Source of the DNA: Heliocybe sulcata
Lineage: Eukaryota > Basidiomycota > Agaricomycetes > Gloeophyllales > Gloeophyllaceae
Assembly (NCBI GenBank): GCA_004369045.1
Contig: ML213506.1
Span: forward strand, 1,056,264 to 1,120,263
Reading direction: 5' to 3'
DNA: 64,000 nucleotides
A model generated the notes under the pieces. It did not search any database and was not told the origin of the DNA. It worked only from the letters and a program-made list of their open reading frames with translations. The position numbers and the translations under genes were made by a program. Each line of letters opens with the position of its first letter. Positions within the stretch are counted from its first letter, which is position 1. Below are positions 10,143 to 42,587 of this stretch, piece by piece.

Positions 10143-10569
10143 ATGTCTGGCAACACTGGCGAGCCCAACAAGACCACCGGTCAGTTCCACTCCGTCAAGG
10201 GTACCGCCGTCGAGACCGTGAGTTTCCTCTGCCTCTCCATCGACCAGAACAACCCCTTGACTTGCGATCTTGCAGATCGGCAACCTGACTGGCGCTACTT
10301 CGTGGCAACAGTCCGGGCAGGAGGAGCACGCTGCCGGTGAGGCAGAGTACAACGCTGCCCGCGCCAAAGGCTATGCCGAGGGCGCTATCGACCGTGTCAC
10401 CGGCAAGAAGGACTCTGTCGTCGGTGCCGTCACTGGCGACAAGCAGCAGCAGACTGCGGGTGAGTAGATAATGTTTCCATGGCATGTAGCTATGTACTTA
10501 CCACTGCATATAGGCAACATCCGCCATGACAAGGGTGAAGCCCAGCAGGACGTCAACCGCAATTTGTAA
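10143..10569 (+). CDS. CsbD-like stress protein, copy 2
   Basis: Exons 10143-10217, 10276-10459 and 10514-10569 (104 aa). It is the divergent paralogue of the gene at 9208-9642 with the same core ([20 protein letters not shown], then [16 protein letters not shown]) and the same exon lengths apart from one codon fewer in exon 1. The predicted protein is small, soluble and highly charged with no signal peptide or membrane segment. The shared TGACGTCA-rich promoter suggests induction by stress through an ATF/CREB-type bZIP factor; this is inferred from the motif, not shown. The exact molecular function of fungal CsbD-like proteins is not settled. Confidence 0.88.
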
Positions 10570-13102: not shown

Positions 13103-14781
13103 CTATGTTGCAGGCACCTCCCAAGGCACCGACACCGACCGTTCAACGGGGGAGTCGGGCATGCTCAGCGCGCTCGGTCGCCAGCTGGCACCTACGTGCC
13201 GCCGCGACGCGTGCGCTGCACCCGCAGGAGGGACGTACGACTGACGCTCGGTATGTGGTGGGGGAGCGCTCGGCGGCACAGAGTGATTTCGGTGGGACAC
13301 AGGAGGCTGATGGTGCTGCTGCGTGGGCCCGTCCTGAGAGGCACTGACCGGGAGATCCAGGTTGAGATACTGAAAATACTCTGAATGAGGAATCACGGCG
13401 GGCCGGTGGGAATGCGATACGCTGTCCGTAGAAGGAGCATGACGCGGCTGCGGCGCGAACAACGGCAGCCGCTCTTCGTCATAGTTGGGTTCGGGAGCGT
13501 TCAGGAACGACATGTCGACACTACCAAACATCTCCGCAAAGCCGGGGTCCAAAGAATTCGTGCCAGTTTGGCCAAAGGAGATTTCGATCTCGCTACCAGG
13601 GTTAGCGATCAGCTGCGAAGGGTCGATTCCTGAGAGCTGGAAGATAGACGGATCGCCAGTGCCCGACAGCAACGCTTGCAGCGACTCTTGGTATTCGGCG
13701 CTGAATTGAGGTGCCCAGCCTTGCATGCTTGCTCCACTCCCAGACGGGATCTCGAATTCCACGGTAGGTGGTTTTGCCTGCCGAGAATCAGTAAAGCGAG
13801 ACTGTCGCTGCGCGCACAACGTACATGATGAGATTCTCCAAGCACGTCCGGCGACCGCTCTCTATTTTCACTCCTGTCAGACCAATGGCGATGGCCGTCC
13901 TGACTTGGCGTGGCGTCGGTGTGGTTATCAGCGGCATGGTCAGGCCAACCGCTCGCGACACCAGGGGTAGCCTCGGCAGTGGACGGGGTAGCAGGTAACC
14001 AGAGACTTGATGTCGGCGTGGGTGTCTCTTCAGGTAGACTCGCTGGGGAGCCTCCTGTTATTGATCTCGCGTCGATGGGGCTCATGGCGTAGGAATGTGA
14101 TGATACTCGGCTGGCGTGGGGTCTTGCAGATGAGGGACCTGGGATCGACAACGAAAGGGCGTTCTGGGGCAAGTATGGTAGATCTTCCCTTTGTGCTGGT
14201 ACCTGCTGTTGGACTTGGGGCTCGAATACTGGTGGAAGGTCCACGCAGGAGAGGCCAATTGGTGATGGTGCAGCTGCTAAAGGCGGTGATGGTCCACAGG
14301 GACCATACAGGGTATCGGAGGAGTAGGGACTAGGTTCAAATTTTGGCAAAGCGAGGATGGTGGAATAGGGTGCAGGGCGGTTGCGCGTTTTCTTCTGGGT
14401 CTTACGCTCCCTATCCTTCTCCGCACGCTTTTCCTCCCGCTGGCGCTCCTTCTCCGCCTTGCTAACAGGATGATAACGGTACCCTGGGTATGCGTTCTGA
14501 TGCTGTGCCTTCCGGACTTCAGCCTTGCGCTCGTACTCCTGGCGCACGAGCTCCGATTCCCTCTTCCACATCTGGGAGATCTCACGAGACACGTCCGACT
14601 GCGCTCGTCGCGGCATGCCAGCGGGGACAGGGGGCAGCTCGCGCAGTTTATCCGACCTGTACAGGATCCACGCGTTGGGTGGCCTGGGGGGCTGGGCGGT
14701 AGTCGTGCGCGAGGGGCCCGCCATGGTCGACGGCGACGGCGGCGGCGAAAACGGGGCAGCTCGGGGCGCGAAGGGCAGCAA
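13103..14781 (-). CDS. HMG-box (MATA_HMG-type) transcription factor
   Basis: Exons 14781-13825 and 13777-13103 (543 aa), with one 47-nt intron (GTACGT..CAG, phase 0). The HMG box lies near residues 32-110 and starts PRPPNAWILYRSDKL. Its helix 2/3 region reads VSREISQMWKRES and EYERKAEVRKAQHQ, ending in YPGYRYHP, the usual form in fungal sequence-specific HMG proteins. A basic Lys/Arg/Glu stretch follows, then a long Pro/Ser/Gln-rich tail that could be an activation region. Such proteins bend DNA in the minor groove and in basidiomycetes include regulators of mating and fruiting. Which paralogue this is cannot be told. An in-frame Met at 14724 is an alternative start. Confidence 0.85.
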
Positions 14782-16897
14782 TCCGTCGCGAGAACTCTCG
14801 CAGGGGTCGAATGTGGGTAAACGTGAATAGAGGGCGGCGCCGACTGCCTTTTAGGCTGCTGTGTGTCTTTGTGGGTCCCCATGTTTGGTCGGTCGAAGCG
14901 CAGGTTGGACCACAGCTTTCACGACCGCGAAAGCTGTACGAGAACAGGCATGGCGTCTGGAATAGCTCGGGCAGAAATTGGAGCTAATGGCGACGACGAA
15001 TTTCACTGCAGGACAACAGCCCCGGTGGCGGGCGCGGGCGCGCAGAGGCGGGATTCCCGAGCCAAACCCGCCAGCTTGCCAGGAGCCGCCATAATGAGAT
15101 TCAAGCTGCAGTCCATAGTAAGTGGCCCCAGTTATAGTGCGCCGTAGTAGTCTGACGAGTTGCACCGGACGTGGTGGTGAGATGGGCCTGACATCCAGAA
15201 ATGTCGATTCCCGACGCGCCCCTTTGGATCTCCCGCGCTCTCAATAGGTCGCCGACCGACTCCTCCGCAACAACTCGTGTTACCGCTACGCGGTTAACTG
15301 TACTGTTGCATTGCTGAGAGAAATATACTCTAGGGTTACTCTGCGTCTGGTACAGGTCCACTCCCGCTGGTTCTACAAGCTTCAGATCTCCTTAACTTCG
15401 ATGCTCTCTGCAGCTCAGAATTCCGCTTGAATCTGTTCGGTCCTGCATCGACTGTGTCCTCCTTCAAAGTCTTATATAGCAAATCCATGCTGCTCTCCGC
15501 CCCATGGATTTTATTCCCGTCCAGTGCGCACAACATTCCGGAGACCCGTATTTATTCGGGAAATTCCTCTAAATGCGAGAACCTGCAGGCCCTAGATCAT
15601 CATCGACAGTCTCGGGCTGATCAACCAATATCCTGACTGGTTTTGAACTACTGTAATCCCTCCCAATTGGAACGAAGATATTATGCTAACCCTGACCTTT
15701 TTCTCCAAGTCCGCGATATCACCTCATGTTCACCTACGACCAATCTTGCATCAGACGTGGCTTGCCAGAATTACGGGAACCTAGAAGCAGAAGCAATAGC
15801 CAGCTGCGCTGAAGAAAGGTCGAGTGCCGCACCAGAAATACAAGGCCAGCACGTCTAGAATATCCCCTCTGGTTAAGATTGACACATATACTCCGTCGCT
15901 TCAGTTTCCCGCCCGGACTTCTGAAAACGCCTGTGCATGACGCCCTTCGCAAAGTGCGAATCTTCTCCTACGGCCAAGCACAGGGCTATGTCCATACACC
16001 TTCGAGTCTCCCTTGGGATGGCGGTACCGGCCCTCGAACAATATATACGGCAATGCGTTGCGAGTAGGCCAGTCATTCTCGAGCAGTATGACGCCTCATG
16101 GCTCTTCGCCGAAGACGGTTGGTCATCTACAGCTGCACCAATGCAAGAGGCAGGGATGTTGCTCTCAGACGACCCCGAGCTGGCGAGATGGATGTGCGCA
16201 TCTCAACCTCTCAAGCTTCAACCGCTGGTCCCGTCCTTCCATGCAATTTGCTATATAGTTATATTACATGTAATGTTATATGACAGTTTCCGCTACGTAC
16301 AGACGACTGCAGGTTTGCATGGGAGTCTTGCGCTGCTGGAGGACATACAAAGTGCGGCCGGTGAGCGCTGTGAACTGTAGATCTCGTATGTTGCAGCAGC
16401 AAATTCGTAAGATGTTGCCGTGTCTGAGCGCAGCGCTCCCAATGCCGAGACCAGGTCCTCAGTGGAATAACAACACGATCATGGATAACGACAACGGCGC
16501 AGACGGCAATCGGATTTTCTATGATACAAATAGTAAAAAGCCTATAACACCCATCCACAAAGCACGAGGGTAACAGATACGGGAACGACACGATACAATG
16601 GAAGTCGTACTAGTACAAGGCGGATATTGCGACGACCGAGACCGAGACTTGAGAACGAGCCAATGAGACGCTGGACCTGGGGTAAGGACGGTAGGAGGGA
16701 GCTTCTGTGGACGGGAGCAAATTTTCTCGACAATAGATGAGAACGCAAGAAGATAACGAGGATAGTGTCGCGACGTAGACACTATCAAGAGAACAACGCA
16801 GAAGGAACGCATATGTTATGAGCACGGAACTTACGAACAAGCGTCAATACATGGCACAGAGCGAAGATAGGAAATATCATACCGATAAATAAACAGG
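14782..16897. other. intergenic, no gene seen
   Basis: About 2.1 kb upstream of the HMG-box gene and downstream of the RRM gene. Only short, unrelated open frames are present. It probably contains the HMG-gene promoter at the left and the RRM-gene 3' UTR at the right. Confidence 0.4.
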
Positions 16898-21200: not shown

Positions 21201-22683
21201 GTTAAACATTTAGCTTGCAAAACGATGAGTCCGCAACTGACCTCTGTCGGAATATTGCATAACGGGAGCCCATAGGACCTGCGATCAGAACATATCTGAT
21301 TACAACAAGTCGTTACGATCGGTACGACGTGACGTACATCGCGAAGAGCTGCCAAACCACCGCTGCCTTGCAAGGCCTTGAGGCCGACGTAAGCGAAGAG
21401 ATAAGGCCAAGGAGAGCCCGTCCCTCTTTCGAAGGTGGCGACCAAAGCACCGAGCACTAGAGGCAATGCCGCATTCACGAACCGGCCCACAACGATCAGC
21501 AGCAGACACAAACACTGCAAAAATTCCGATTAGATGATATCACGATGACGCGGAATCAGAGCATACGTACAGCCAGAAATTGGAGGGCAAAGCTTTTGCT
21601 AGGCCACAAGTAGGGCGTGATACGAGCGATGCGCCGGCAGATCTCTCGCCATGAGGGGTCCAAGTTTATCTCCTGCTTAGAAGGAGAATCCTGTTGGTTA
21701 GAAAGGTCAGCTATGTTGTCTCGGAGATCAATTGTAGAACTTGCCTTGACAGCAGGCAACTGTACGTGAGACGGAGCCGGCGTATTCGTGCGTGTGGTAG
21801 GCCCGGAGCTGACTGTAGAGCGGAATGTACCATATTGACTCGTCTTAGCCGCAACAGGGGACAAGCCAGTGGACGGTGAAGCTCCCTCCTCAGCAGAGAG
21901 AAGCAAGGAAGAAGCGTTCGGTGCGACGATCTGCGCATTTTCGCCGAGAGAGGCAGGAGTATATACAACCCGAGGATAGAGCAGAGTGAACAACAAGGGA
22001 ACCAAGAAGAGTACACGAAGAGCAGGGAAGGCGAGATGTAGGAGCGCCGGAAGGTTAATTTTGATCGGAAGTTCGGGGATTTTAGGGACTGCGTGGTCAT
22101 TTATATCAGACAAAGTTCTGCTGGCTCAGGAACTGCACTCACCATCCTTGAACAGATTGACTGACAGGGCGAACAAAACCACCTGGGCGATGTCCAAGAG
22201 AAGGGCTGTGGCCACACCGAGTTTGACCCTCTTGAGTGACCAGACATCCACGCCCTTGACGTCTTTCCAAGCGCCCAATGCAGCTAGTCCACCGAATGCA
22301 ACGAGCCCAACCACGGCACCGATTTCGATACCCGTGTTCTGCGGCCACAGTCTGGCGAGGAGTGCATACAAGGCGAAAGTGAGCCCATCAAGGAAAAAAG
22401 TGAGAGCTGTGAGGGAAAGAAGAGACAGAATAGCACCCCGCCGAGGAATGCGAGTAGCTACAACGACGGACGTGATCTCTGAAGGAGGAGAGGCAGAAGG
22501 TCTAGTCGGGATGACCGCGAGTGTGGCCAGCAGGACTAGAGCCGGAGAGGCAACTCGAACAGCGAACAAGGCCTCGGAGATGGACACATAGGACGCAAGG
22601 GCCGCCGCGGTCAACGTCGCCGCCATCGTGCTCGACGTTGAAGACGATAAGATGGAGTCGTCAAGAGCCGTGGCGAGTGGCAA
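18281..22683 (-). CDS. HMT1: ABC half-transporter, HMT1/ABCB6-like
   Basis: Modelled with 17 exons: 22683-22143, 22088-21571, 21514-21338, 21278-21242, 21185-21064, 21007-20890, 20832-20765, 20708-20576, 20523-20483, 20425-20324, 20266-20107, 20056-19771, 19712-19576, 19521-19449, 19397-19304, 19242-19223 and 19172-18281 (1172 aa, frame closes). An extra N-terminal membrane domain precedes the ABC membrane domain, which has the HMT signature [19 protein letters not shown]. The nucleotide-binding domain is complete: Walker [10 protein letters not shown] (~704-712), VVPQDS, signature LSGGEKQRVA (read across a splice), Walker B ILLLDEAT and the H-loop SIAHRLS. Relatives move glutathione- or phytochelatin-bound metals, or porphyrins, into vacuoles or organelles. 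A Ser/Pro/Glu-rich tail of ~260 residues follows the ATPase. The 54 nt at 21744-21691 could be a GC-AG intron. An in-frame Met at 22626 is an alternative start. Confidence 0.93.
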
Positions 22684-23195
22684 GCTACGCGAGGCAAGGT
22701 GGCCTCTTTATCCGGGAAGCCACGCCGAACACGAGTTCTTGGATCACGTTTGGATCACATTTCACGTTCTCACCTCATTTCACTACCAATTAGACGTTAT
22801 CCGCCTGACTTCTTTTGAACTTAGCTGATTATGTTTCTCGATAAGCTATCTACATCTCTGCACTACAGGGCCCTTATATACTGCAAACGCTGGGCAAGAG
22901 CGCAGCATGGGCCGCTCACTAAACAACACAACATGCAGGCATCGCGCGCCGATATCAGGAACGGAAAAGAAAACTGTCGCCGAAGAAGAGCAGAGAATGG
23001 AATCAGCGTGTCGGCCGGAGCTTTGGCAGAGAACATCAGCGTCCCTGATTGAAGATCATTAAGATGCCGTTCGCCCACTCGAGGAATAGCAGGACTCGGG
23101 ACGGAAACAGAAGCTCGGAGAGATCGCTTCCGCTGCGATCTCGGCTATGAGACGACCTGAGCAGGTGATACGAGCTTAAACGCATCCGTGCTCAC
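22684..23195. other. intergenic
   Basis: About 510 bases: probably the ABC-transporter promoter and the 3' end of the small gene to its right. No gene seen. Confidence 0.4.
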
Positions 23196-24124: not shown

Positions 24125-25458
24125 ATGGCTGCTCCTACTCACGACGCGCCTCGCCCTCGAAAACCAAGGAAAGAATCTGTCGAGATCGAAGGACGCGTCC
24201 TGCCAGTCTCGCCGGTCTTGGATGCCCTCTTCTACTGGATGGCTGAAAGAGATGCGATTCGGCGAAGGAAGGCAGCGGGAGAGGCTGCACCATGGACGAA
24301 TGATCCCATCCTCGCGGAATACAAGTTCACGAACGTCTTCCGCGTCTTTGACCGCACTTCGCAATATGTTTTGCGGAACGTGATCAACAGAGGCAGTCAG
24401 GACCTCTACGAGACGTGTTTTCGGGTGATGCTCTTCCGCTCATTCAATCGGATAAGCACCTGGGAGCTGCTGGATTCCGAGCTTGATCTAACATGGGCGA
24501 ATTTCAACTACAACGCTTATCGTCGCGTCTTGCAGGAAGGCGACGTGGATGGCGCGATATACGGGCACGCGTATATATTGATAGCCCCAAACGCCTACGG
24601 GGGAAGGAAGAGCTATGAGAACCACCTGGGGCTGTTGCAGCACATGTTGGAGGATGGCCTTCCAGAGAAGCTGGTCAATGCAGCTTGCATGAAGGAGGCA
24701 GAGAGCATTGTCAGTTCGTACAAGGGAATGGGACCGTTTCTCAGCTTCCAGTGAGTGGTCCAGGCGCAAGTGGCTTTCCTTTATAGCGCTAATTATGAAG
24801 GCTCCTTTTGGATTTGAATATGACGCCGCACTTTCAGTTCTCCGAAGACGAGTGGGCTATTTGTGGTCCAGGTGCCGCAGAGGGGCTGCAGAAAATCTTC
24901 GGATGCGGCGTGAAGGGGATAGAACTAGAGGTTATGAAGTACCTCCGGGACACGCAGTACAAACACTGGGAGCGGCTGGGAATCACCGACCTTCCGCGGT
25001 TACATGATGGACGCCTGGGCATCGCGCTCGTCGACCTCGAGCACTCGCTCTGCGAGTGCGAGAAATACGCCCGAGTAAAGTACCCGCGTATCAGTGGTAA
25101 ACGGAAGACCTATAAGCGTCTCTACCTTGCCACGGAACTACCTTTGGACTTGGTCTTACCTGAGAAGTGGACACCGCGAGGCGGAACGTCCGGTACCCCG
25201 ATTAGTATCAGTCATCTGCCGGACAATGAGCCTCTAACCGAGCTCGAAGATTCGGATCCGGAGTATGAGATCTCGCATATCGTCAGGGAGGCTCTTATAC
25301 CGGAGGGCGGGATGGAATACCTGGTGCGCTGGGTTGGGTGGACCCCAGAGTGGGATCTGTGGCTTGCGGAGAGTGAACTCCGTGACGCGCCTGAGGTCCT
25401 GAAGGATTGGTCGGAGAGGAGAAACAAGAGAAAGCGGCGTCCGAAGAAGAATTGGTAG
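24125..25458 (+). CDS. thymine-pyrophosphorylase / 5-hmdU DNA kinase-like domain fused to a chromodomain
   Basis: Exons 24125-24750 and 24801-25458 (427 aa), with a 50-nt intron GTGAGT..AAG that restores FLSFQ-LLLDLN. Residues ~35-300 match the helical alpha-glutamyl/putrescinyl thymine pyrophosphorylase (5-hmdU DNA kinase) family: YKFTNVFRVFDRTSQYVLRN, FRSFNRISTWELL, ENHLGLLQHMLEDGLPEKL, GPFLSFQLLLDLN and FSEDEWAICGPGAAEGL. Phage members take part in replacing or decorating 5-hydroxymethyluracil in DNA; the roles of fungal members are only predicted. Residues ~362-412 form a chromodomain with the histone-methyl-lysine cage positions filled (Tyr364, Trp386, Trp389). A basic Lys/Arg tail ends the protein. 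No signal or membrane segment is visible. The likely site is nuclear chromatin. No TET/JBP oxygenase lies in the window. Confidence 0.88.
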
Positions 25459-25812
25459 TAGTCGTAGACTTGTGAAGCAGGCGTGTTGTGGCATTCCCAG
25501 TGCGTGTTCTCAATGTGAAGCCATTATGGAAATTCTGATGCGGAATTTCAGATCGGTTGAATTGATATACCTCGGTCTTCGGAATGCATGTTCCGAGTGT
25601 TTGATTAGTCTAGGATATTGGCTTCGTGTCGACTCTCAACATATCAACAAGGGGTTATATACCCAAGCCATATGCTCATACTTAGGGAAACTCGTAGTGG
25701 GTTAAAAGGTGCGACACTATATCATGCACGGCTCGAAAGTACGTCCCCTATGCGTTATCAGATTGAGAAACCTCAGCAATGAAGAATCTGCGCCTGCCTT
25801 CCATGCCTTGGT

Positions 25813-26284
25813 TCACTTTTGCTGCTGGGTAGACGTGGGCTTGGGTTTGGTGGGCGCCCCACCCTTGATCGGCTTCCGAATCGGCCCTCTCGGGCAAAAA
25901 TTATCATCTATGACCACAGTCCTTTGACCTTCGATAAATATGCGCAGGTACGCCATTCAGCTGGTCCTGAGTACTCACTGGCTTGTGGAGGCACGGGCGA
26001 CAACGGCGTCCTTTGTGACTCCGTAAGCTGAGGTAGCCGACCTGCACGAGAACGTGAGAGGCTTTAAAGCAAGCACGGTTTGCGAGACTCACACGTTCGA
26101 ATCTGCACTGTGAAGCAAACATCATCAGCCGGGGAAGGTAGGAAGGCGGAAGGAATCAATTTACCTCATATGCGCAGACTTTAATGAAGCTGGATGGACT
26201 GATTCGTACCTGGGGCGGTGCGCAGTTGGCTACCCAGTTGTGCGAGAGAACTGGGCGGGTCAGGGCTTTTATGGTCCTAGACGT
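25813..26284 (-). CDS. unrecognised intron-rich gene, locus A (5' incomplete)
   Basis: Not recognised. Plausible exons on the minus strand, each bounded by GT..AG, start near 26284 and include pieces of only 14-15 nt. They join in frame to an end with GVTKDAVVARASTSQ, then TVVIDDNFCPRGPIRKPI, then a Pro/Lys/Thr/Gln-rich tail stopping at 25813. The last intron interrupts a Gln codon after its second base (CA|G), as in locus B (CA|A). No signal peptide or known domain is visible, and the 5' end was not found. It could be a functional lineage-specific gene or a decaying one. Confidence 0.3.
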
Positions 26285-26691
26285 CTGTGCTGTGCAGAAT
26301 ATTGATATCCAGGGCCTCTATTCAATTAATGAAACACCTATACGCTCCGGGCTGCTCACAATAAAGGTGTATGGTAACAAAACTCGAAACGTACGTCTAT
26401 TCAACACTGCAATGCTGTCCTCATATTAGACTAACGGACCTTATAGACGATACAAAGCTCGGCAGCACAGCACCACCTGTCCGGAGTTGTGGCTGATCAC
26501 TTGATAGACGCACAGGTCGATCGTGACAGGGATACCAAGTAACGGAGTGAGTACGACAGCATTCCACAGCATTGCAGACTTATGTGTTCCAGATCCGACC
26601 AGGATACAGCAGTAAGTACGAGAAGACCTCCGACGACAATATTGCCACCGTCGGGCGACCTCTGCCAAAACGGAAGACGCCGCCGCCGCTA

Positions 26692-27186
26692 TCATCCTAG
26701 TAGTATATACGGCGCCCAAAGAAGACGAGACAAGACATGCCATTGTGGAATGTGCTCAAGTGTACTCCAGTATAAGGAATGCGTAGGCTGAGGTCCACGT
26801 TCTGGCTCGTTTGCCTGTTGAGTTGATATAGCGCCCCGTGACTTCGAGACGCCCTTGATGCCTTTCGGCGGGCCAGCAATGACTAGTCTCCGAATCGGCC
26901 GTCTCAGAAATGAATTCTCCAGTCGGCAATGAACGTTAATACAGGTCGGTTCATGATGTATGACCACTGCCAGCAGCACTTACTGAGTTGCGGACGTAGA
27001 AGCGACTACTACGCCCATCACTTGACTGTAAGGCGAGTCACCCGCTCTAAACAGGACGCCGTGAGGACAGTTCAACGCCCGTGACTTACAGTACTCGCAC
27101 TGCTGAATCACCGTATGATAGTTGTTGTCAGGCAGCTGCGCATATGTGCAGGCAAAACCGTACGTCGAGCCCATCTCATGATGCAC
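26692..27186 (-). CDS. unrecognised intron-rich gene, locus B (5' uncertain)
   Basis: Not recognised. A frame opening at MHHEMGSTYGFACTYAQLPD continues through a probable 45-nt intron to SPYSQVMGVVVASTSATQ. A second intron interrupts the last Gln codon after CA, and the following exon reads RPIRRLVIAGPPKGIKG with a basic tail. The AVV/VVVASTS..Q end and the following RPIR/GPIRK motif parallel locus A. True start and expression are unknown. Confidence 0.3.
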
Positions 27187-27851
27187 CCCGTCGAACTAAG
27201 CGCTTAGTTAAACAGGCTTTGGGGCCAGATAGGCACGCTCTATTGAGCTGAGGTGTCCGCGGACGTCCATAATGAGGAAGAGCACTGGAACAAAGGCTTC
27301 CTATGTATCCAGATATGCTGTGCAGGCCTGCCATATGTGTGGCACGGAGCTTGGCAGCACAGCGTGGCTGTACTGCCCGTGCATTCACATCCCTTCATAA
27401 AACAGAGGTGCGATTCACATAAATGAGGGCACTAAGTGCACTGCAATGCTGTCTCTATAATGAAGGAACGAGCTTCACCGGATTTCGGTGCCTTCGCAGA
27501 TGCACGGCTGGACGGAGGCAAATACGCGGACTTGGAAAAGCGTGATGGCTTTGATCAGCGAATCAGGGCTCAGGGCTCAGCGCTCAGTGTCCGACATCGC
27601 CGGAGAAGAAAGCGGCAAAAGATTTGAGCGCAGGACTCATCCTAGTCATTTGGTTTGACATCCGGGCATCAGCACCCTCCTTGATAGACAAGACGTCGAA
27701 CAACTGGGCATTGGCAAGTACAAGGGAAACGACAGCCGATCCATATTCTATCAGGGTGCTGTATCCATAAATGTAGACTGTAGACCTATGTACTTGCATC
27801 TTCTAAGTCCGCAAGTTGCGAGAACATCGTTCGAAAATTCGGCTTGGCAGT

Positions 27852-28790
27852 TCAAGCACGCTTGTTGCCTGCATTGTTAGGCTTGGTAGGCTTGGGCCTG
27901 CCCTTGCCTGAATCAGTCACGTTAGCCGGGCCTCTAGGTCGTATGTTGCCAGGCAGTCGCAGGATCTTTCTATTATGAAGATCGTCTGAATGCCAGTCCC
28001 GATACATTTCAGTACCCGATACGTACCTGTTGTGCCCGGTAACCCCAGGTCGTAACTTGACCTGAGCAAGCGCGGAAGTCAACCTGCGGCCAGCGGTCAG
28101 CAGGAGCCCAGAATAGATATCTTTTCTGGTGGGTGCTTACTTGTCTTCAGCGACACTGGGGATGGCAAGGTGTAAGCAGATACATCGTGAGTCTTACCCA
28201 AGAACGTACCTTGAGGACTGACCACCTTTTTCAGCGGGTACTTCTTCATTCTTTCCGTTTTTCTGGCACCTGGATGCTCGTAAATACCCGATGCGGACCA
28301 TATAGTAACACGACAAAACAAACCGTTCCGCGTCTTTCTCGGCTGAAGGGATATCTGCCCTCCTACGGAAGAGGTTAGTAGGCCATCGGCTCAGGATAGA
28401 GCCACTGACTTAGTTTCAAAAACCACGGAGAACTGTTCAGCAGGTCTGGATACACAAACGCTTAATGATCAAGGTTACATGCTTGTAGCAGTGACTCTAC
28501 CTGTAGACGATGACCCCGCCGCCTCGAGCACCGGAGAGGTTGTCTTGTACGCTGGCCATGCTGTCTTGTAATCTCGTATGTATATGTCGAAGGTCGTAGG
28601 GAGCGAAACTTGATTCTGCTGTTTATACCCCCAGGCAAATGCGCCTTTATATGCTCGAGGTCGCGCCGACTCCCTGGTGAATCGGCACAGTGGCTGGAAA
28701 TTTTCGTCGAGCAGAATGCGCTGGTCGTACTGTCTCATAAACCTGGATAGCCCATTATCAGAGAGAGGCAACAGTTCAGCCTCGGAATTG
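27852..28790 (-). CDS. unrecognised intron-rich gene, locus C (5' incomplete)
   Basis: Not recognised. A long exon (~28790-28495) reads MRQYDQRILLDENFQPLCRF and GYKQQNQVSLPTTFDIYIRD. It is followed by an exon with VTIWSASGIYEHPG, a 15-nt exon, and a last exon with NIRPRGPANVTDSGKGRPKP ending at 27852. The terminal Pro/Lys/Asn-rich tail and the tiny penultimate exon resemble locus A. The beginning was not found. Confidence 0.35.
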
Positions 28791-31700
28791 ATGACCTACT
28801 GGATGGCATTGCTTAAGCACCCTATGATCGATTGATCACCGACCGGAGAAGCAGATTTACTCACCACACTGTCACACACGAGAAGTGTTTTCCGCGCAAT
28901 CGCATGGCTGCCTGACTCCATGGGAGTCCATTTCCTCTGTTACTGAGGTAAAACAATCGATAAGTTGGAATCCGGGGTGGCTGCACCGCCTCGCATCCCT
29001 TCCCAAGGCGGTTTAGTCACAGTGTTGACCGGCACTCCCCGGCACCGATCGTTGAACAATACAAGGCGGAACCGAAGAGATCAGACAGATGGAAGATAGA
29101 CAGTAATGACGCCGCCACAGTGAGTTCGCTCAAGAACCTACCTCATTGAGATGGAGAGTAGCTCATCCTCTTGAAGTTCGGGCACTCGGCTGGATAACTA
29201 AGAGCTGCACTGTCATCAAAAACTATGGTGAAGGCAAGGGAGTGCCGACATACCTTGCGCCAGCTAATGAACGCGAAGCGTACATCTAAAACTTATGGGA
29301 AAATTATCCATCCAATGGGACTACCGCTTTTTCCTGAAGAAAAAATAGTCAACGGAAGGACGTGGTCGCGAAGCTGCGTAGAGTACAACCAGATATCCTG
29401 GAGTAGATGTAGATCGCACATACTTTTGTCCTCGAACACAGAGGTTGATAGACTAAAACATGTACTTCGACCCAGCTTCTGCATCCACTGACATAAGAGA
29501 ATGTCATCGCCGCTCTCAAGAAACGTCGGAGTCGGCGCAAGTGAATGTCCGAGCTGCATTCTGGACGAAACTCAGAAAGGGGATTATGGTGGCTATCTTG
29601 AGACGGCTCGAGAGCAAGGCCCAAACATTCACAGTCCCAGAACGGTGGGGAGGTATTCGGAATTCGTGCCCGAGCTCAGGAGCAAAATCTTACGGTGTGT
29701 TGAGGCAATCCTTGCATAGCCGAGATGAAGCAGACAGATGGATGCCATCAGATACGCGACTAGCATTTTTTATCTTTTGATATCCTCTTACTGAAGGAAA
29801 TTGACAAAGCTCACCTAATACAGCATCGAGAACATCGGAATTTCTCCGGATCATCCGATTGATGATTCACAACAAGATGAGAACATGGGAGCGGTCATCA
29901 TCGACTGGCAGCCGGCGGGATAGCTCTAGTCTTCTGACGGATGCAGTAGTACGGCGTTCTTTTCCGCGCGAGTCCATAGCCAATCACAAGGGCATGACTG
30001 CTCCGGCAAGGATCGCTGGCTAGTTGATCCATGCCGTCTCCAGTGATATTCCAAAAGATGGTCCGTAGATTCTTGGTCAGGCTCGGCCGGAGTGGTCGGA
30101 AGGCTCGTCTGTCAGAGCTACCCCTAGTACGCCACTACCCTGCTTGAGCATACGTTCACCGGCTGCTAGACAACCGACTCAGTGGCAGTCCGGGTTCTGT
30201 TGCGACATCGAAGATCCTGGATCAGAGCTTATCAGTGGTTGAAACTCGCGCCACCTACCAGCTCTGAGACAATCGATTGGAACCTTGTATGCCGTCCCGC
30301 ATGCCGCAGTGTAAGTCGGGGACAAGGGCAAGGTGTCATAAAATTTCGTGGAACAGCCCGAGTAGCTGACAGGGTGCTGGAATGTTTACGGGAATACAAC
30401 AGAGCCTCACTTAAATGTGTCACTAGATTAGCAGTTAGAGACGTAGTCGCGGGGTTACATGATACTTCCACGCTAAGAACGATGCGTACCATGTCATCAC
30501 CTCAACCAGAAGGACTGACAGAAACGGGAACTCCGCCTTGATATGCCATTCGGACGACTTCCATGATGATTGAGGTTTGCCGGTATGCGCCGATGCTCAC
30601 CTGAGATATGTCCTAAAGCTGTGTAAGGAAGCTCGGCAATTCGGACAGGAACTTGCCAGCGCTGTGAACAAAGCCACTGTAATCGATGAAGACTAACTCT
30701 GAGTACGCAGACTAGCCTCTACGAGGAATGCTGGATGGTCAGGATTGTAGCCCAAATGTCGGATTCATAGGTCCGGGGATCCATGAACTTTCCGGTGGAT
30801 TCGCCGTACGCACGAAGCGAAAACTTTGAATGTTACAAGATTAGATGACCATGAGAAGAGACATACGTTGTTATCGAGCGCGTTCTCGCTCCGATTCGGG
30901 GCATGTAAGGAATAGAAGCTCCAACACGCCATTATAAGAATAGCGGACGTTCGTGATAACCTTGAGCTCCCTAGGTCTTCCTAGCTGCGGTACTTCTGCA
31001 ACGGCATATCGTATACTCTTCATTTCAGACATCCATGTCAAGTTTTGGCCAAGACATGGGCGAATTTGACGAAGTCTCGGCGACTTTAAGACGAAGGCGG
31101 TCTTCCTTTCATAAGAGGCTCAAGCTTCTAGACTACTTATCGGATTCACAGCCGTGTTAGATATGGATCCCAAGATCCGTACGCCCGCACCATTTGGGGT
31201 GCTTGCGCGACAATCACAAGGATCGAAGAGCCGCAGGATTAACAGCACGATTTAATATCGTTCGTGAGGAGTCATTAATCACTCCCGGATGACCAGCGAG
31301 TACAACGACGTCCCATGACCAGTGATTCTGCCGGTCTCCGTGTCGGTATTGGGTGAAAAGAAGGTAGTACATTGAGTCATAGCAAGAGTATGTCCATAGC
31401 CATGGCGGGCTGTGGCAAGAGGCCGCATTACTACCGTGAGACTTTAGGGCGGATATATACGAGCTCCTGCCAACGCGGAAATTTGCCCCTGCTCCCTCCC
31501 GTCTCACTCTAACAACCCAGCAACGTCTTTGACGACGGCCAAACCCACAAGAAACCTTTCCTCTGATCTATGAGAGCCGACGAACCACTTTGGTACGTTG
31601 TCGTTCTCTGCCACGAGTGACGTCCGCATTCTAAAGTATGACTACAGTAGTACCCATCAGACGAACGAGATTATCTTCGGACCCCTTGCGTTCCTCGTCG

Positions 31701-31927
31701 ACACCGACAGACCACCTTAGAACCCACAAGATCTCCCTTTTGCCGAACTTGCACATCTCTCCTGCATCGGCTAATGGGATAATCGCACTCGAGCAATCGC
31801 TGGCATCAGGTTACCCGCTCCCGCATCTTGGACCGACATAGAAACTAGATCTGCTAGAAAAGAACACGGACAAACCACTCAATATCTTAGAATCCAACAG
31901 TCATATCCAACTCATTACTCCGCCACC

Positions 31928-33615
31928 ATGCACGCACTCAAGAGTCCCTCCTTCTTCCGCCCTTCCAGCAGGCCTTCTTCGCCGGCGCCCGGTACTGCAC
32001 CGCCCTCTCGTTCTGAGTCTGGTAGCAGTGTCCGGGAGTCGCGACCCCGTACCAAGCTGTCTTTGAACACCTTCAGGAAACCTTCGCCCGCGCCTCTTGC
32101 GCCTATGGCACCCGTCACTCTCATTCAGGATGGCTCGTACCTGGACGCACTCAGCCTCAAGCTGAGCGAGGGTGTTTCCAAGGCTCTCGCTCAACCCAGT
32201 GGGCCCGGGAATCCCTCAGAGATCCTGAATGGAAGGAGACCGATTCCGGCAGGCAGGGGTAAAGCGTTGGGAGATTTAATTGCTTCGTATGTGGACATCT
32301 ATCATTCACCATGAGTCACCTTCTTACTAAGCGCGACAGAGAGTTCAACGCATCCAAGGACAACCCACACCTGCGGCGTGCAGTACTTCGTGCCTTGCAG
32401 CGTCCGTTGTCCGTTTTGCTGACGAACGTCTCCACGGATCTCTTACCTTTGCTGTCATCCCCTGCCTTCACGTCTCCTTCGGTTCCCACTGTCCAAGCTC
32501 CGAACCCAAATGCTACGCAGTCTCATGCGCTGGCACTGGCCACCTTCGCGGGCGAGCTGTTGGAGACCTTCGACGAGCTGGGCCTCGGATTGGAGACCGA
32601 CAACAGGGGAGACAATTTGAAGCTTGTACGTGAAGGCCTCGCTTCCGTGGTGCATAGAGTGGTCAACCCTCTCGTGACGGGTATCAAGAACGATCTCGCA
32701 AAGAAGGTGGAGGAACTGGAACACGCAGGCATCCAAGCGAGTACCGCCACGAAAGGTGGCACGAAGATCATTCAACATCCCTCGGTTGCCGCTATGCAGT
32801 CCGTTATGCCCATCTATGTCAAAGCTCTGACACGGTATACCTCTACGACTACGTCGCAGAGCTCCCTTGCCAGTCTCATAATTTCTCTGGTATGGCGGGG
32901 ACTGGTGGCAATTTCCCATCGTTCGGACGTTGCTGGTCCCTCCCCTCCCAGCAACCCACCTAGTCCGTACTTGGGCGTGAAGAAGCATCGTGGATCATCC
33001 ACGACGCCGCCTGTGACGCCTCCGGCGTCCAGATTCACGATGAAGTTGCCTCCTTCCCGTCCCCCTTCTCCTCCAGGGTTGCTCGTACCTACCACTCCGG
33101 CTGCCGATGCGCGTGCTCTGTACGAACTGCTTAACATGCTCCCTCGTCCAGCAGCTGAGAAGAAGAGTACGCGGATTGCGCGTGAAGCTGTGGACGAGGC
33201 GTTTGACGGCCTGAAGGCTCTCGTGTCCCTTCTCGAAGCGGTACAGACCAACAGTGCCCACATCAAGGCAGGGAGTGTAGAGGAGCTTGAGAAGGACTTG
33301 GACGTCCTTACTGCTGGTTTACCCATCATGATTGCTTTGCCCGTTCTCCTTCGCGCCTACGTCTATCCCCCGAAAGTTGACGGCCGGGAGCCAGTGCAGG
33401 TTCGCAGCGTTGCTGAGATGGTAGGCATATCCGAGGATGAATATCGGAAGGGATGCTTGGCTGGGTATGGGCGCGCCGAGGAGTGCGAAGTCATGGTAGG
33501 CGAGCGCGTGTTTAATGCTTTGCGCAGAGATGCCGGCTTGCGAGCTCAGGCAGGATCGGGATATGAAGCTGCTTTGTTATGGCTGGAAGGACGGATCAAT
33601 GGGGAGGAGGATTGA
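31928..33615 (+). CDS. conserved-looking hypothetical protein
   Basis: Exons 31928-32286 and 32340-33615 (544 aa), with a 53-nt intron GTATGT..CAG whose removal gives LIASEFNASKDNPHLRRAVL. The N-terminal ~50 residues are Ser/Pro-rich (MHALKSPSFFRPSS). The remainder is Leu-rich and helical (QRPLSVLLTNVSTDLLPLL, FAGELLETFDELGLGLE) with a Pro/Ser-rich insertion near residues 325-385. No transmembrane segment or catalytic motif is recognised. It resembles an unnamed agaricomycete family from memory only. The clean frame, conventional intron and start context support a real gene. Confidence 0.75.
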
Positions 33616-33794
33616 CTGCATGGACCGTGTCGTCTATTTATCTCGTCTAAGCGACTGTCGCTTAGTTGGTTTCTTGTATATAGTCTACCATCAACTATTG
33701 TCCACTGGACGTTATGGTTTAATTGGTTCTTTGCCAGCGTGTCTGGCCTGAAGCTGAAGCAAGTTTGAAAATTTGCAAGCCTGGGGCTGTTTAG

Positions 33795-34225
33795 ACGTAT
33801 TTCGGCAATGGCCGGCCCATGATCACGCATCGAGAGCGGTATGTAAACAACCTCAAGAGCGTCCGAATATCTGATGACAATCGCACAGGATGTCGTAACA
33901 CAAGCGCTTGCTGAGCAAGTACCAGCTGAAACCAAAGATTCGCCCTGCACCTTCTTTGGCGAATATCTCCTAAGCTACTTAGCAAGGTAAGCGGACATTT
34001 ATGAACTATGGAATGTCCACATATTTTGTCAATCGCTGCGGCTCGGGCCATATCAGAGACCTAATCAACCCGCAGCGTGGGCTAGAACGCTTTTCAGTGA
34101 AGTATCATGACACAGCGACTATTGACGTGGAAGATACTCGATTTCAAGTTTACAAGAACGCCCCGCTGGTTAGGCAATTTATGCTAACTGACCACTGGGG
34201 TGTCCGCCATTTGTGCGAACCCTGA
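33795..34225 (+). CDS. 3' fragment of an unrecognised gene
   Basis: Three exons join in frame: 33795-33838, 33889-33986 and 34057-34225, with GT..AG introns of 50 and 70 nt. They give VFRQWPAHDHASRADVVTQA, then FFGEYLLSYLARDLINPQRG, then TIDVEDTRFQVYKNAPL, ending HWGVRHLCEP and stop. The 5' acceptor at 33794 is good, but no upstream coding exon was found before the neighbouring gene ends at 33615. This suggests a truncated copy. I do not recognise the family. Confidence 0.4.
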
Positions 34226-34877
34226 TCCGCTCCCAGGTTCGTTCATTAAAGTTATTCCTGGATATCAACGTTCACAATATCGACGAACAGCACCTCATTG
34301 TCTTATCATTGACGCCCAGTAAGCTCAACTGGACTGTCACGAGAGCTACCCATCATCCTGGAAGTCGCGTTTCGTAGCATATGATCTCTGGAATGTCTCT
34401 GTTCACTCCACTTGAACTGAATGCCTGGAACAGGCGGAGCGCCTGAGGTTTCGGTCAGGTCCAATTCTCTTCCCGCAAACGAAGGTATGCATTTACCACA
34501 TGAATGGTCTGTCCAGAACATAAGCAGGCAAGCGTACTAGCGATTTCTTCCGGTCCTCTAGGTGCGACACGCCATGCGGAGAAAGGGGGTCGGTGCGATT
34601 GCATGATTCCAATCGAAGAGACTGTTGCGTGTCACAATTCGGAGATATGGGTCCACGTTTACATTGGATCAATCGATAGTCAGGGCGAGGATTCTCCTAG
34701 GCGCTCTCCACGCAGCTATACAAACGTAAGAGGAGGGCACCTTAGTGAACGCTATTCTAGCGTCAAGCGCCTTCCAATGCTATAAGTAGGAGGGGTTTTA
34801 TTGGCACTGCTCTACTGACTCTGCTGCTCAGACTCCTTCCGCTACCAGAGGCCCAAGCTCTACTTGTCTGCGACGTC
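34226..34877. other. intergenic
   Basis: About 650 bases upstream of the kinase gene. No coding feature supported. Confidence 0.4.
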
Positions 34878-36228
34878 ATGTCAGGCCAACACCACTCTTC
34901 TCATAGGAAGCCCCTGCCCGTCCCAGGTCCCGACGAATGTCCTGTATGCTGTGTTGGCTTTTGCAGCCGCTCTAGTATCCTTATGTCCAATTCAACAGAA
35001 TCTCAGCAAAGATATTACTAACATAAATGAGCTTGTCGCCGATGGTGGTTTCTCTAAGGTCTATCGAGGGACGTGGAGAGTCTCAGGGGCAAAAAAGTTC
35101 GATGTACGTCGTACATATTTTGGAAGGCCTGGGCACTGATAGACTGAGGTTTCAGATTGTCATAAAGTACTTGCGTTTCAACACCAGTGATGAGGAGTGG
35201 CAGAAGAGCATGCGAAAGGTCTTATATTCGCTGTGCCTCTTATTAATATCACTAATATCTCTCTAGTCTGCCCTGCGTGAAATTAATGTATGGTGCAAGT
35301 TGCAGGATGATAATATTTTGAAGCTGCACGGCTTCTGCGACGGTCTCGGCCCAGGAATGGCCCAGGAAATGGCCCCTGCTCTAGTATCCTCTTTCTGTAA
35401 GAATGGAACCGTCATGCACTATCTTGGGAAGCAGACAGGTGACGCATTGCAAGCTGCAAAGTCAATGGCGGTAAGTGGATTGCTGGCTTCTGTCGTAGTT
35501 TCGGTGATTAATATGGTTGCAGACGATTGGCATCACTTATGGGCTTCAATATTTGCACCGAAACGGCATAGTTCATGGGGACTTGAAACCAGTATGCTAC
35601 GGTTTGCAATCTTATGGTGGGAGTCTGATTGGGCTAACTTGATTATACTCAGAATAACGTGCTTGTCAGTGATGGAGGACAGCCCCTTATAACTGATTTC
35701 GGCCGTTCCAAGATTCTAGATAAGGAGGGTTTTACTCATACCATCGCAGCTATCTCTACGCGATACACTGCGCCAGAAGTGTTGGTCCCCGAAGGTGATA
35801 ATGAGATACCAGTCGTCACCAAATCAAGCGATGTATATAGCTTCGCCATGACTATTCTAGAGGTGCGTAAGTTTAAGGCAGTTTATGGCCTGCGCAGTTT
35901 ACTGTTTGCTTTCACTATCCGTTCACTTACTTCTTCAAGGTGTACACTGGCAATGTACCATTTGCCGGTATCAAGCTGGACACCAAGGTTATAGTGGTTG
36001 TTGCCGCCCATGCAAAGCGTCCTCCCCTAGATGGTGTGCCGCCGGACTGGCACGGCTTGTTGCAAAAGTGCTGGGACAAAGATTCGATAGCTCGCCCTTC
36101 AATGGTATGGTCGCGAACAAATCGCTGTCTTTCGCCTTCTAAACAATCACTTAATAAAAAAGGCGTTTTCCAAATCATATGGTAGTACTTCGGCTTCGGC
36201 CGCTTGCTGTGCAGACTCAAGCACTTGA
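34878..36228 (+). CDS. TKL-type protein kinase (agaricomycete family)
   Basis: Eight exons: 34878-34943, 34999-35103, 35156-35218, 35267-35470, 35523-35591, 35653-35862, 35940-36104 and 36163-36228 (315 aa). Every intron is phase 0. The kinase domain starts after ~40 residues with a glycine loop (ADGGFSKVYRG). The ATP-binding Lys is Lys61 (IVIKYLRF). The catalytic loop is HGDLKPNN with Asp166, where the usual Arg of HRD is Gly. DFG is at 184-186 and APE at 209-211, so it can be catalytic. The compact size and lack of other domains match the expanded TKL-like kinases of mushroom-forming fungi, whose substrates are unknown. The short Ser/Ala/Cys-rich last exon is the least certain part. Confidence 0.88.
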
Positions 36229-36462
36229 GGGAAATGGCCACGTCCCGACAGCAGCGCGCGCATCTTATGATGGGCCACCTTGTTGCCTTCACCAAAGGCG
36301 CGTTATGGTCGTGCTTAAGTTGCATCTTCCCGTCCGCCGCCGGTCACCGCTGGACAGGCTCCGCTTGGGAAACACAAAGCGGAATCGAACTGAGTAGATG
36401 TCATCATCACACACCAGCGTCGTTCTCTGGTTAGTCGTAATTTGCGATATATATATTACGAT

Positions 36463-39400
36463 CTAACCGCTCGTACCATGTACTAGGACTGTCCTTGCTA
36501 ACTGTACATACTCCATTGCAGTAGACGGGTCTTGGCCTTCGGCTTCGTTGATTTTCTCCCAATGAGAAAGGCCTCCCTCGATCAGAGCCAATGCCTCCTC
36601 TTCCGAATGTTCCTCCACCCAACGCACGTACTCCGCCTCTTGCCATCCGTGCAGCGTGTGAGGTAAAGGTATCGGCGACCGAACCATGATGTGATGCAGG
36701 ACTATCACGGGCGGTAAGCCTTGCGTGTGCTGCGGGGAGGCCAGCTGGGCATTCTCGAGGAACAGCAGAGGCCTATAGGAAGAGTGAGTCTCCGTTGGCG
36801 AACGTGGATTGAAATCATTCAAACCTCATGGCACGCAAAGCACGGTAATCGTCGGCAGCAGAAGACCAGTCCGCTCCGCGCTTCTTTGACTGGGGATCCG
36901 TCATGAAAGAACTGACTGCGAACTCAAGCTCAGTCATATCGCTAGTTAACTGAAGCTTCCCGCTTTCTCCTAGTGGCTTGACTATTGAAACGTGCAAGAC
37001 GAACGTCCTCAGCACGTATTTGACAACAACCATAGTCCTGTAGCATGACTGTCAACGTTGGATCGAGACACTAGAGAGGAAGGCAACATACCATTCCCGC
37101 ATCTCGTCACCCAAAGAGAATTTGCTAAGGATCTCCATCTTGATGAACGACAGTTTATCGGAAAGGTCCTTCATATAGAGGCTCGCCCCGCCGCCCATGC
37201 CCGCCATAGAATCGACATCCTTGCCGAAGTCTGCCCGGTGCACTCTAGCGATGATGACGCCTAGCTCTCGCTTGATCGCCGTCAAGAGCGGGTCTATAAC
37301 CTTTTGATAAGCTGAACGAATTTTCTGGGAGCAGTACGGTCATCATGCAAGAGCGAGAAAGACGAGCGTAAGTCAACGCACATTGATCTGAGGCTTTAAT
37401 ATCCCGATAATATTGTCCGGATATTCTTCGTCCAGTTTGTATAGACGCAACCAACAGTGGTACAACATGGATATAATTTGACCGTTCAGACTCTGTTGAG
37501 GGGTGGCCGTGGGTCCTGTCAATGTAAAGGCGGGCCTGTCGTGGACCAACTATCGCCTTCCTCAGTTATATCCATTGGCCAATATACAGCATATAGGCAC
37601 TCACCAATCCATCTGCTCTGTTCAACATCAACTCCAGACTAGCAATCATATTCCGCGCGACAGCTTTGATGAGCAGGGGATCGAACTTCGCCGAATCGAG
37701 TTCATTCGCAATGCTCCTTGCAATATTAATGCCTTCATTCATCCCCGGTGGCGAGCGATTGCCACCGGAAAACGCCTGCCCGACTGTCTCGTTCAGCTTA
37801 TTCGAGACCCTGGCGAGGTAGAGGCCTTCGAAGGTGGACAGTGCTCTGAGGACCAGGATAGTCTCGGGGCTGCAAGGTTGATTAAGGGACTCTTAATCTT
37901 CATGGAATACTTGGAGCCCGTACCTTTGTGCAGTTGAGCTATACACGGTATCGGTGTGTACCGCGATCTTCGCGAAGAACTCCTGGAAGAGCCTCAGTAG
38001 ACGGGGATAGCCTGTGCTTAGCGTCTGCTGCAAGAATGACGATCCCTTCGCAGCGTCCTTGCATTGTTTCTCCAGCGCTCGACCCAGTGAGGACCAGAAA
38101 GTGGTACTCGGTAGATTCTCGAGAGCCTGCGTCACATTCATGAAAATCAAATTCCCGGAGACAGGACAGAAACCGGCAGACCTTCATGGCCTCATCAAGA
38201 AAGACGGTACCTGTAAGCGGATCCTTCTTCAACTTCAGAACTTTCTCTAGCGTATACACCTATAGATAATTGAGATGGGTATTCGAGGGCAATCACGCGG
38301 ATTGGACTCACCTTCACACAACAGGCAGTTAACTCCTCTACAAGACCGTCAAGTCGCGTCCACAGCACGGCCGTCCATTGTGGGGCGGTTAAATTTGTAG
38401 GCTCAGTACGAACGCGTGATTTGTACACCTGACTCTGCGAGGTAGATGCAGAATCTGAAAAAAATCCAGATCAACAAGTTAGTAATGCATACATGTACAA
38501 AGTGGCATCCTACTCACCTTTACCCAGAGCCTCTTTCGACAGCTGTGACAAATCAAAGGCGGCTCGTATTCGACTATCAAGGGCACCAGATAGATCCAAA
38601 ACCAGGTTCTGAACCACTTCAGGCAGAACCCGGAGGTTATGTGCTGTCTGCAGGGATGACGCGAGGAGGGACTGATTCTACTCGGGGAAAATCATCGGCT
38701 AAATAGTTGGAGAGAAGGAGGTAGAGGACACAGTTTACCAGAGTCGCCAGTCCTGTAACCACCATGTTCTCCATCTCCGCTGTAATCTTGGCGCGGGTTT
38801 CCTCAATAAAGGGTATGTGGGCTGCGACGGCATCAATAGCACGCAGTGATATCATCGATTCGGTATCATCCGCGGGCTGTCTGCTAGCGGAATCGTCGAT
38901 GCTAGTTCCGTCCTGCTTTGCCTCTGTCCCTGGAGAGGCATCGAGCAGCGCCGCTGTCATCATAATGTAAAGAGATCAATGAGCATGCGGGCCTCGGACG
39001 CAAAATGGTCAACAATTATGATAGACTCACTCAACTCTGCGATGCTGAGAGCTGCTTTTGAGATTGTGCGCTCCTTGTCTTCGTCATGGTCGAGAATGCG
39101 GGACGGCGTCGACGCACCACCTGCTGATGGTTCAGAGGCACCCTCAGCAGCGGCCATCTCATTCATCTGGGATTCCAGCCGGCGACCTAGCACAACAAAT
39201 CTGGACATCCGTCGTAATACGTCCAGAGCCTGCTGTAAGCGTTGTAGACGATTGACATTGCTCTCCAGTGTTTGATACGGGGCGCGTATTTTCGAACGGA
39301 GTCTGATGAGGCAATCAGTCTCGTTCACTCCTTTCCAGGTTGTCAGACAGCGAACAGGCATACTTCTCTAAGGAAGATTCGAGTTCTCCTAGGCCGCCTC

Positions 39401-42221: not shown

Positions 42222-42587
42222 TTATTGATTGCTCGTTGGTTTCTGTGTTCGGTTGATTCAAGCGCTTGTGTCACATCCGGACTGCTGGACGAATGTTTTG
42301 TAGGATAGTAATGTCATTCAATCACTCGAATTCCGTTATTCTCATCTCCTTCCGCTCTAATCTCTCATGCATTAAGGATTCATGCACTATCAGATGTGCC
42401 ACATGGGTTATCATAAGTTTTCCCGCGCATGTTTCATCGCTTCTTCGCTGAGATCAAGTATATTGCCCCTATCTTACATTATACATCTCATCGAAATGCG
42501 TAAAACTTACTACGACATTGCCACCGATCCCTTGCCGGGTCCAAGAGTGAATTCTGTTCTGACCTCCAGGCTCAGGCTCCAGCAGAC
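42222..42587. other. short intergenic
   Basis: About 370 bases between two co-directional genes. An ATG frame at 42496-42591 (MRKTYYDIATDPLPGPR) reads like coding but stops without a clear splice into the F-box gene. Confidence 0.35.

Follow-up and report, generated by a model that had tools for sequence, protein, structure and literature searches.

An intact gene of the fungus Heliocybe sulcata encodes an HMUDK_hel domain fused to a chromodomain

Introduction

The Pfam family HMUDK_hel (PF18723) includes the phage proteins PAE1_49 and Vi01_130c (phage ViI) as well as the helical part of the 5-hmdU DNA kinase from Bacillus phage SP10, and some records name the phage members "aGPT-PPlase clade 1". 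In part of the phage loci, the domain lies beside, or is fused to, a kinase, an amino-acid:DNA transferase (ADDT), or a glycosyltransferase. ADDT, which forms another Pfam family (PF18724) and occurs beside HMUDK_hel within one phage, acts on DNA, as does TAGT. For HMUDK_hel alone, we know of no activity.

Several fungal systems bear on the same questions. Passages of one study describe DNMT5 as a fungal DNA-modifying enzyme with a chromodomain that engages the H3 tail (PMC13297926); its catalytic part, SNF2 plus a cytosine methyltransferase, is unrelated to HMUDK_hel. Two basidiomycetes are reported to have 5hmC and 5fC, with transposable elements enriched for both (PMC8889193), and TET/JBP genes are reported to be carried by fungal transposons, in which the authors note no further modifying protein (PMC12730594). 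Transposable-element chromodomains are common in fungi (PMC10799480; PMC2864245). On the bacterial side, newly validated defence domains include a 5-hydroxymethyluracil kinase and a thymidylate synthase, while MazG, MazG-C, NMAD, and aGPT-PPlase are predicted but not validated defence domains, according to sections of the DefensePredictor study (PMC13092281).

Here, we describe a gene from Heliocybe sulcata in which an HMUDK_hel domain is joined to a chromodomain. The gene lies in a stretch of 64,000 nucleotides of contig ML213506.1 (assembly GCA_004369045.1), hereafter the window, and positions refer to this stretch. Basidiomycetes are reportedly named in the abstract of Iyer et al. 2013 among the organisms with such systems, so that fungal HMUDK_hel members have probably already been described. 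Among the matches listed from the CC-licensed PMC literature, no paper treats an HMUDK_hel-chromodomain protein.

Results

Gene structure

The open reading frame starting from the ATG at 24125 reaches a stop at 24752 to 24754, and a second frame runs uninterrupted from 24799 to 25458. Joining the two across a predicted intron gave a spliced product of 427 amino acids from two exons, the stop codon included in the second, with codon 209 split by the intron and residues 210 to 427 encoded by exon 2 (Table 1). A script listed 22 donor/acceptor pairs that keep the frame, and among them the GTGAGT donor was unique to this intron; the AAG acceptor was atypical, and a CTAAT ended seven bases before the 3' end. 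In the displayed alignment of the joined protein with bacterial relatives, the exon junction was gapless. Because exon 2 by itself encodes both the chromodomain and the last third of HMUDK_hel, the fusion is independent of the splice prediction. The gene encoding this fusion is intact, and the single two-exon gene claimed in the preliminary description was borne out by the 427-residue model, with its gapless junction and with both domains represented in exon 2.

Table 1. Features of the HMUDK_hel-chromodomain gene and annotated reading frames elsewhere in the window
Feature	Position	Strand	Content and evidence
Exon 1	24125..24750	+	Basic N-terminus and roughly the N-terminal two thirds of HMUDK_hel; first ATG, Pfam match
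Predicted intron, 50 nt, GTGAGT...AAG	24751..24800	+	Sole GTGAGT donor pair; gapless homology junction
Exon 2	24801..25458	+	C-terminal third of HMUDK_hel, then linker, chromodomain, basic tail, and stop; one open frame
Basic N-terminal stretch PRPRKPRK	24149..24172	+	Sequence reading
HMUDK_hel, residues 30-307, intron-interrupted	24212..25095	+	PF18723, E 5.3e-105
Chromodomain, residues 364-415	25264..25419	+	PF00385, E 6.8e-5; CDYL, E 3.9e-6
Cage residue Tyr364	25264..25266	+	Chromodomain alignment
Cage residue Trp386	25330..25332	+	Chromodomain alignment
Cage residue Trp389	25339..25341	+	Chromodomain alignment
Very basic C-terminal tail	25414..25455	+	9 K/R in last 14 residues; sequence reading
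Sec7 ORF	2913-6644		Pfam scan
HMG-box ORF	13612-14850		Pfam scan
Enoyl-CoA hydratase ORF	45014-45472		
Carbon-nitrogen hydrolase ORF	54022-55227		

The HMUDK_hel domain

In the Pfam search, the N-terminal domain scored 351 bits against a curated cut-off of 25 and covered profile positions 2 to 280 of 281. We defined strict conserved positions as those where a single residue occurs in 85% or more of the copies in each group, bacterial and viral (n = 24), and the fungal protein retained 23 of them (24/25 with rounding). The exception was an invariant lysine expected at residue 163, which in the fungus is K162; a one-residue insertion in the R-K...N-H-L motif explains this odd conserved position. 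The invariant residues are shared with bacterial HMUDK_hel proteins, among them C-terminal P/R/K/W positions absent from most viral forms. The fungal domain retained 26 of 47 bacterial-type positions and, at 15 viral-type positions, carried the viral residue seven times and the bacterial residue three times; it is therefore not simply a bacterial copy. The basic PRPRKPRK stretch that precedes the domain may contact DNA.

Family membership of the N-terminal part had been proposed earlier, and the Pfam match and the retained invariant residues confirmed it. The family label itself stood in part: the HMUDK_hel match held, but an identity as a kinase or as the characterised transferase did not, since the M6-like phage PAE1 has a separate protein for each of the three: the kinase (PF18748), the amino-acid:DNA transferase (PF18724, which matches the solved structures 25qc and 8z2m), and HMUDK_hel. 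This separation rules out that HMUDK_hel is itself the kinase or the transferase. At E values up to 1, Pfam families in the fungal protein were limited to HMUDK_hel and chromodomain-like ones, with no P-loop kinase (PF18748 or Thymidylate_kin); the Pfam search likewise gave no match to ADDT. The "kinase" in the Pfam name denotes a partner domain, which the fungal protein lacks.

The chromodomain

The Chromo profile aligned over its full length (positions 1 to 53 of 53) at 23.1 bits, slightly below the curated cut-off of 25.1. Compared with solved structures, the C-terminal part matched the CDYL chromodomain best, and also those of Chp1, CBX7, and Clr4. The three cage aromatics fell exactly where they had been placed before, aligning with Y, W, and Y in the three chromodomain alignments shown, and with the CDYL match they uphold the claimed cage-bearing chromodomain. 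Tryptophan at the third cage place and the WxGW spacing are features of Polycomb-type chromodomains. The fungal sequence differs from the CDYL, Chp1, CBX7, and Clr4 chromodomains in reading WLAE for the usual WEPE motif and in its unrelated partner domain. The one predicted structure of exon 2 on its own was poor (pLDDT 52.7) and lends the chromodomain no support. The basic C-terminal tail resembles a nuclear localisation signal and may act as one.

When 168 HMUDK_hel ORFs from bacteria and viruses were searched with phmmer at E values up to 10, none had a segment like the fungal chromodomain; within this compared set, the swap to a chromodomain partner is thus peculiar to the fungal gene.

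Fold comparison

A bacterial relative (L086) was modelled instead of the fungal protein, from a 112-row alignment that included both window exons, and the predicted structure had a pLDDT of 94.9 and a pTM of 0.91. Its best PDB match was the phage 5-phosphomethyl-dU glycinyltransferase 8z2m (probability 0.85, with a weak E of 0.17), 8-oxoguanine DNA glycosylases (7ou3 and 3knt) followed lower with weak scores, and no PDB match reached E 0.001 or better. Among viral structure models, the SP10 5-hmdU DNA kinase came first (E 5e-14). A profile search of PDB sequences returned 8qkh alone (E 0.08), which we took as chance, and comparison of the HMUDK_hel family alignment with the ADDT protein PAE1_43 by profile was not significant (probability 2.4%). 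Likeness to ADDT (8z2m, 25qc) consists of a weak fold match and a similar motif near the C-terminus that is not significant.

Relatives and origin

Matches by tblastn were found in 457 phage records, the best-ranked at 31% identity, with M6-like PAE1 and ViI among them. Viral contigs gave no match when scanned with the single protein and did give matches when scanned with an alignment. In the bacterial scan, at least 591 stretches matched the pattern and at least 546 were confirmed; in the viral scan, at least 600 matched and at least 540 were confirmed. The best 80 of each were kept, so that both sets are selected by likeness to the query and are not a census.

The best 80 of at least 546 bacterial relatives had 36 to 41% identity over most of the domain by tblastn, with E values (relative to the candidates only) reaching 6e-75, and the best viral tblastn segment among the matches listed (L005) had 35% identity. 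In the family alignment, the fungal protein averaged 36% identity (30 to 40%) with 83 selected bacterial copies and 29% (23 to 32%) with 85 selected phage and viral copies. The closer relatives of the fungal domain are thus bacterial and chromosomal, not viral, so that "phage-type", the term first applied to it, is imprecise, and we rejected a close phage origin on the same grounds.

In a quick tree of 114 rows, the fungal row branched close to the root of the bacterial part, with poor resolution. In a careful tree of 37 rows it fell among Actinomycetota with support of 100/99, on a long branch. Approximately unbiased (AU) tests did not reject trees with the fungus outside those five Actinomycetota rows (p 0.37) or outside all bacterial rows plus two viral ones (p 0.18); a clade of the bacterial rows and the fungus without the two viral rows was rejected (p 0.02). 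Recent transfer from Actinomycetota, favoured by the 37-row tree only, counter to the 114-row tree, and not significant, was set aside. An origin of the fungal HMUDK_hel on the bacterial side is likely from these comparisons. Two HMUDK_hel genes occurred per locus in L128, L136, L153, and L078 (three actinobacteria and one viral contig).

Viral loci and domain fusions

Among the best 80 of at least 540 viral loci, thymidylate synthase (TS) lay near HMUDK_hel in 64, a kinase in at least 21, ADDT in at least 11 (all 11 with a kinase), and a TAGT-type glycosyltransferase in at least 17. Thirty of these 80 had TS but no kinase, ADDT, or TAGT-type gene was found, and in 12 none of the four was found. 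These partner counts are lower bounds, because a second kinase family, HMUD2, exists and because another type of glycosyltransferase, that of L008, which occurs in 12 of the same best 80 loci, stands outside the glycosyltransferase tally.

Single copies of HMUDK_hel are fused to other domains: to a 5-hmdU kinase, which may sit on either side (L012, L026), to one resembling dTMP kinase (L139), to MazG and MazG_C in a member of the Gemmataceae (L131:7902-9878), and to a group-1 glycosyltransferase in an 837-amino-acid protein of a viral contig (L008:4435-6945); the last suggests base glycosylation assisted by HMUDK_hel. Being common to phosphorylating and glycosylating pathways, HMUDK_hel is most simply read, from this context, as the handler of the hydroxymethyl-pyrimidine substrate.

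Bacterial loci

Bacterial neighborhoods were searched within 7 kb in the best 80 of at least 546 loci, several of which were ended by contig ends, and the neighbor identities rest on representatives. In this set of 80, a TS-like gene was near HMUDK_hel in 58 loci, MazG/MazG_C in 55, an M78 peptidase in 53, and an HTH_3-type regulator in 40; a ThsB-type TIR gene occurred in 10, Nmad2 in 10, and a SLOG/TIR protein in 7, and 5 loci were without any sought gene. Neighbors related to nucleotides were MazG, dNMP kinase, DCD, and TS-like genes. No PADLOC model was found for the HMUDK_hel protein scanned.

The TS-like genes were of two types among these best 80 of at least 546 loci. Type 1 (10 loci) has a representative that is a clear Pfam thymidylate synthase, and for type 2 (54 loci, e.g., L142:7105-7878) the first representative had no Pfam match and scored 42 bits in NCBIfam against a cut-off of 174.6. 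Of 34 neighbors scanned, 22 of which were type 2, Thymidylat_synt was matched in 5, and HTH_3 in 12, equal to the number of HTH-type rows. Compared by profile, the two types matched with a probability of 87% (E 4e-6). "TS-like" is therefore sound as a statement of sequence homology and no proof of activity, and type 2 is a possible new hydroxymethylase family. The divergent type 2, for most members of which Pfam gave no match, retains a PC dipeptide aligned with the PC of thymidylate synthase.

Two other arrangements were observed. A radical SAM/SPASM gene (e.g., L149:6980-8948) lay near HMUDK_hel in 8 of the best 80 of at least 546 loci, seven from Bacilli or Erysipelotrichaceae MAGs and one from Spirochaetales, and directly adjoined it in 7 of the 8; the L149 gene matched PADLOC prokaryotic viperin models at E 4e-12 and fell far under the NCBIfam viperin cut-off. 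In L138:2738-9011 and like loci, HMUDK_hel is clustered with ThsB-type TIR, SLOG/TIR, Nmad2, and MazG genes, a Thoeris-like mix with base-modification genes.

Surroundings of the fungal gene

The HMUDK_hel-chromodomain gene occurs once in the window. It had been described as flanking a gene-poor tract, which is accurate for long ORFs between 25456 and 31774, where no stop-to-stop ORF of at least 150 amino acids occurs, but not for the wider neighborhood, which has ordinary genes (Table 1); a scan of 72 ORFs from 25403 to 43511 matched COG5, protein kinase, and F-box families. Across the 90 distinct window ORFs scanned, there was no match to a transposase, a reverse transcriptase, or an integrase; none to TET/JBP, to thymidylate synthase, or to a 5-hmdU kinase; and none of the TS-like, MazG_C, and M78 neighbors found in bacterial operons, which sets the fungal gene apart from its bacterial relatives.

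The window's only blastn self-match at E 1e-5 was an inverted repeat pair of 150 bp (9316-9465 and 10312-10461, 84% identical), far from the gene and possibly a small mobile element. A transposable-element origin of the gene was rejected, as no such domain occurred in the scanned ORFs and the repeat pair is distant. About 1.4 kb upstream, on the opposite (minus) strand, a long ORF at 22129-22707 has hydrophobic stretches and is perhaps a membrane protein, with no Pfam match; the plus-strand ORFs 32263-33612 (450 amino acids) and 43447-44829 (461 amino acids) had no Pfam match at E 0.01.

Discussion

In its relatives, HMUDK_hel recurs alongside TS-like genes and enzymes decorating hydroxymethyl-pyrimidines, a gene context that suggests a portable module through which hydroxymethylated pyrimidines are handled. 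For the fungal protein, we tentatively prefer a two-mark reader/recruiter, possibly also a writer, with HMUDK_hel on a hydroxymethylated base and the chromodomain on methylated H3, a reading that is possible rather than probable. The HMUDK_hel module would engage a 5-hydroxymethylated pyrimidine (5hmU or 5hmC) in DNA, the chromodomain would hold the protein on nucleosomes with methylated H3 (K9 or K27), and the protein would serve as a reader/recruiter at silenced repeats, where it might also mark or decorate the base. The hydroxymethylated base would come from TET/JBP oxidation, as reported in other basidiomycetes. We infer the nuclear location, the binding to histone and to DNA or base, and the source of the base in this fungus. 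That modification or recognition of a base is targeted to methylated heterochromatin, as the preliminary description had it, is plausible, and recognition would fit the gene-neighborhood evidence at least as well as modification. Counting against the preferred reading are the weak E-value of the 8z2m match, the non-significant profile comparison with ADDT, the chromodomain score below the Pfam cut-off, WLAE in place of WEPE, the poor exon 2 model, and the lack of TET/JBP, thymidylate synthase, and 5-hmdU kinase matches in the 90 distinct ORFs scanned; the bacterial operons with nucleotide-pool genes would also allow action on free nucleotides.

If HMUDK_hel were a catalytic writer, it would transfer a group to 5-hydroxymethylated or phosphomethylated bases while the chromodomain targeted heterochromatin, yielding a hypermodified eukaryotic base. 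The glycinyltransferase 8z2m as best PDB fold match, the retention of nearly all family-invariant residues, and the 30 of the best 80 of at least 540 viral loci with TS and HMUDK_hel and no queried partner, as if HMUDK_hel sufficed, all point this way. Yet the likeness to 8z2m is weak, the known transferase belongs to a different Pfam family and sits beside HMUDK_hel in PAE1, and the partner queries can miss genes, such as the HMUD2 kinase and the L008-type glycosyltransferase; we regard such a writer as unlikely. The domain may instead be a domesticated part of bacterial immunity, taken from defence operons, targeted to histones, and used against transposons or DNA viruses. This account draws on the bacterial affinity of the nearer relatives, on loci with TS-like, MazG_C, M78, HTH_3, ThsB-type TIR, Nmad2, and SLOG/TIR genes, on the 37-row tree, and on the two validated and four predicted domains of the DefensePredictor study (PMC13092281). 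Those validated proteins need not be relatives from these HMUDK_hel loci, however, and PADLOC had no model for the HMUDK_hel protein scanned; likeness to the query governed the choice of bacterial relatives, and the tree placement is not significant by the AU tests, involves a long branch, and differs from the 114-row tree, where the fungal row is basal. We regard this account, too, as unlikely.

Action on free hydroxymethylated nucleotides, with the chromodomain minor or vestigial, would suit the MazG, dNMP kinase, DCD, and TS-like neighbors, which are nucleotide-acting families. It sits poorly with the weak fold match to DNA-base enzymes, with phage partners that include the DNA-acting ADDT and TAGT, and with the intact cage and basic tails, which suggest a nuclear role, and is improbable in our view. 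Still further from the preferred reading would be a decaying or mobile-element gene without cellular function, its chromodomain derived from a chromovirus integrase. The chromodomain score slightly under the cut-off is compatible with this, as is the commonness of transposable-element chromodomains in fungi (PMC10799480; PMC2864245), but both exons are open, 23 of the 24 strict invariant positions are kept, and the window has one copy of the gene, with no transposable-element domain in the 90 distinct ORFs scanned, all of which makes decay or mobility highly improbable.

With respect to the two-mark reader/recruiter, chromatin targeting of a DNA-modifying enzyme is already known from DNMT5 and cytosine methylation, and the new element is the HMUDK_hel module. 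Whether as enzyme or as reader, the protein might couple histone methylation to a hydroxymethyl-derived and possibly hypermodified base, which would be a base new to fungi handled by a bacterial/phage module rewired by a chromodomain; taken as a whole, this wider proposition is doubtful. The gene-neighborhood result also corrects a misleading name, in that the "kinase helical domain" reads as a module of both kinase and glycosyltransferase pathways. If the protein is nuclear, it would offer a single gene for probing whether the silenced repeats of fungi contain further-modified bases, and an entry to what follows 5hmC from fungal TET/JBP and to the reuse of a bacterial part in a eukaryote.
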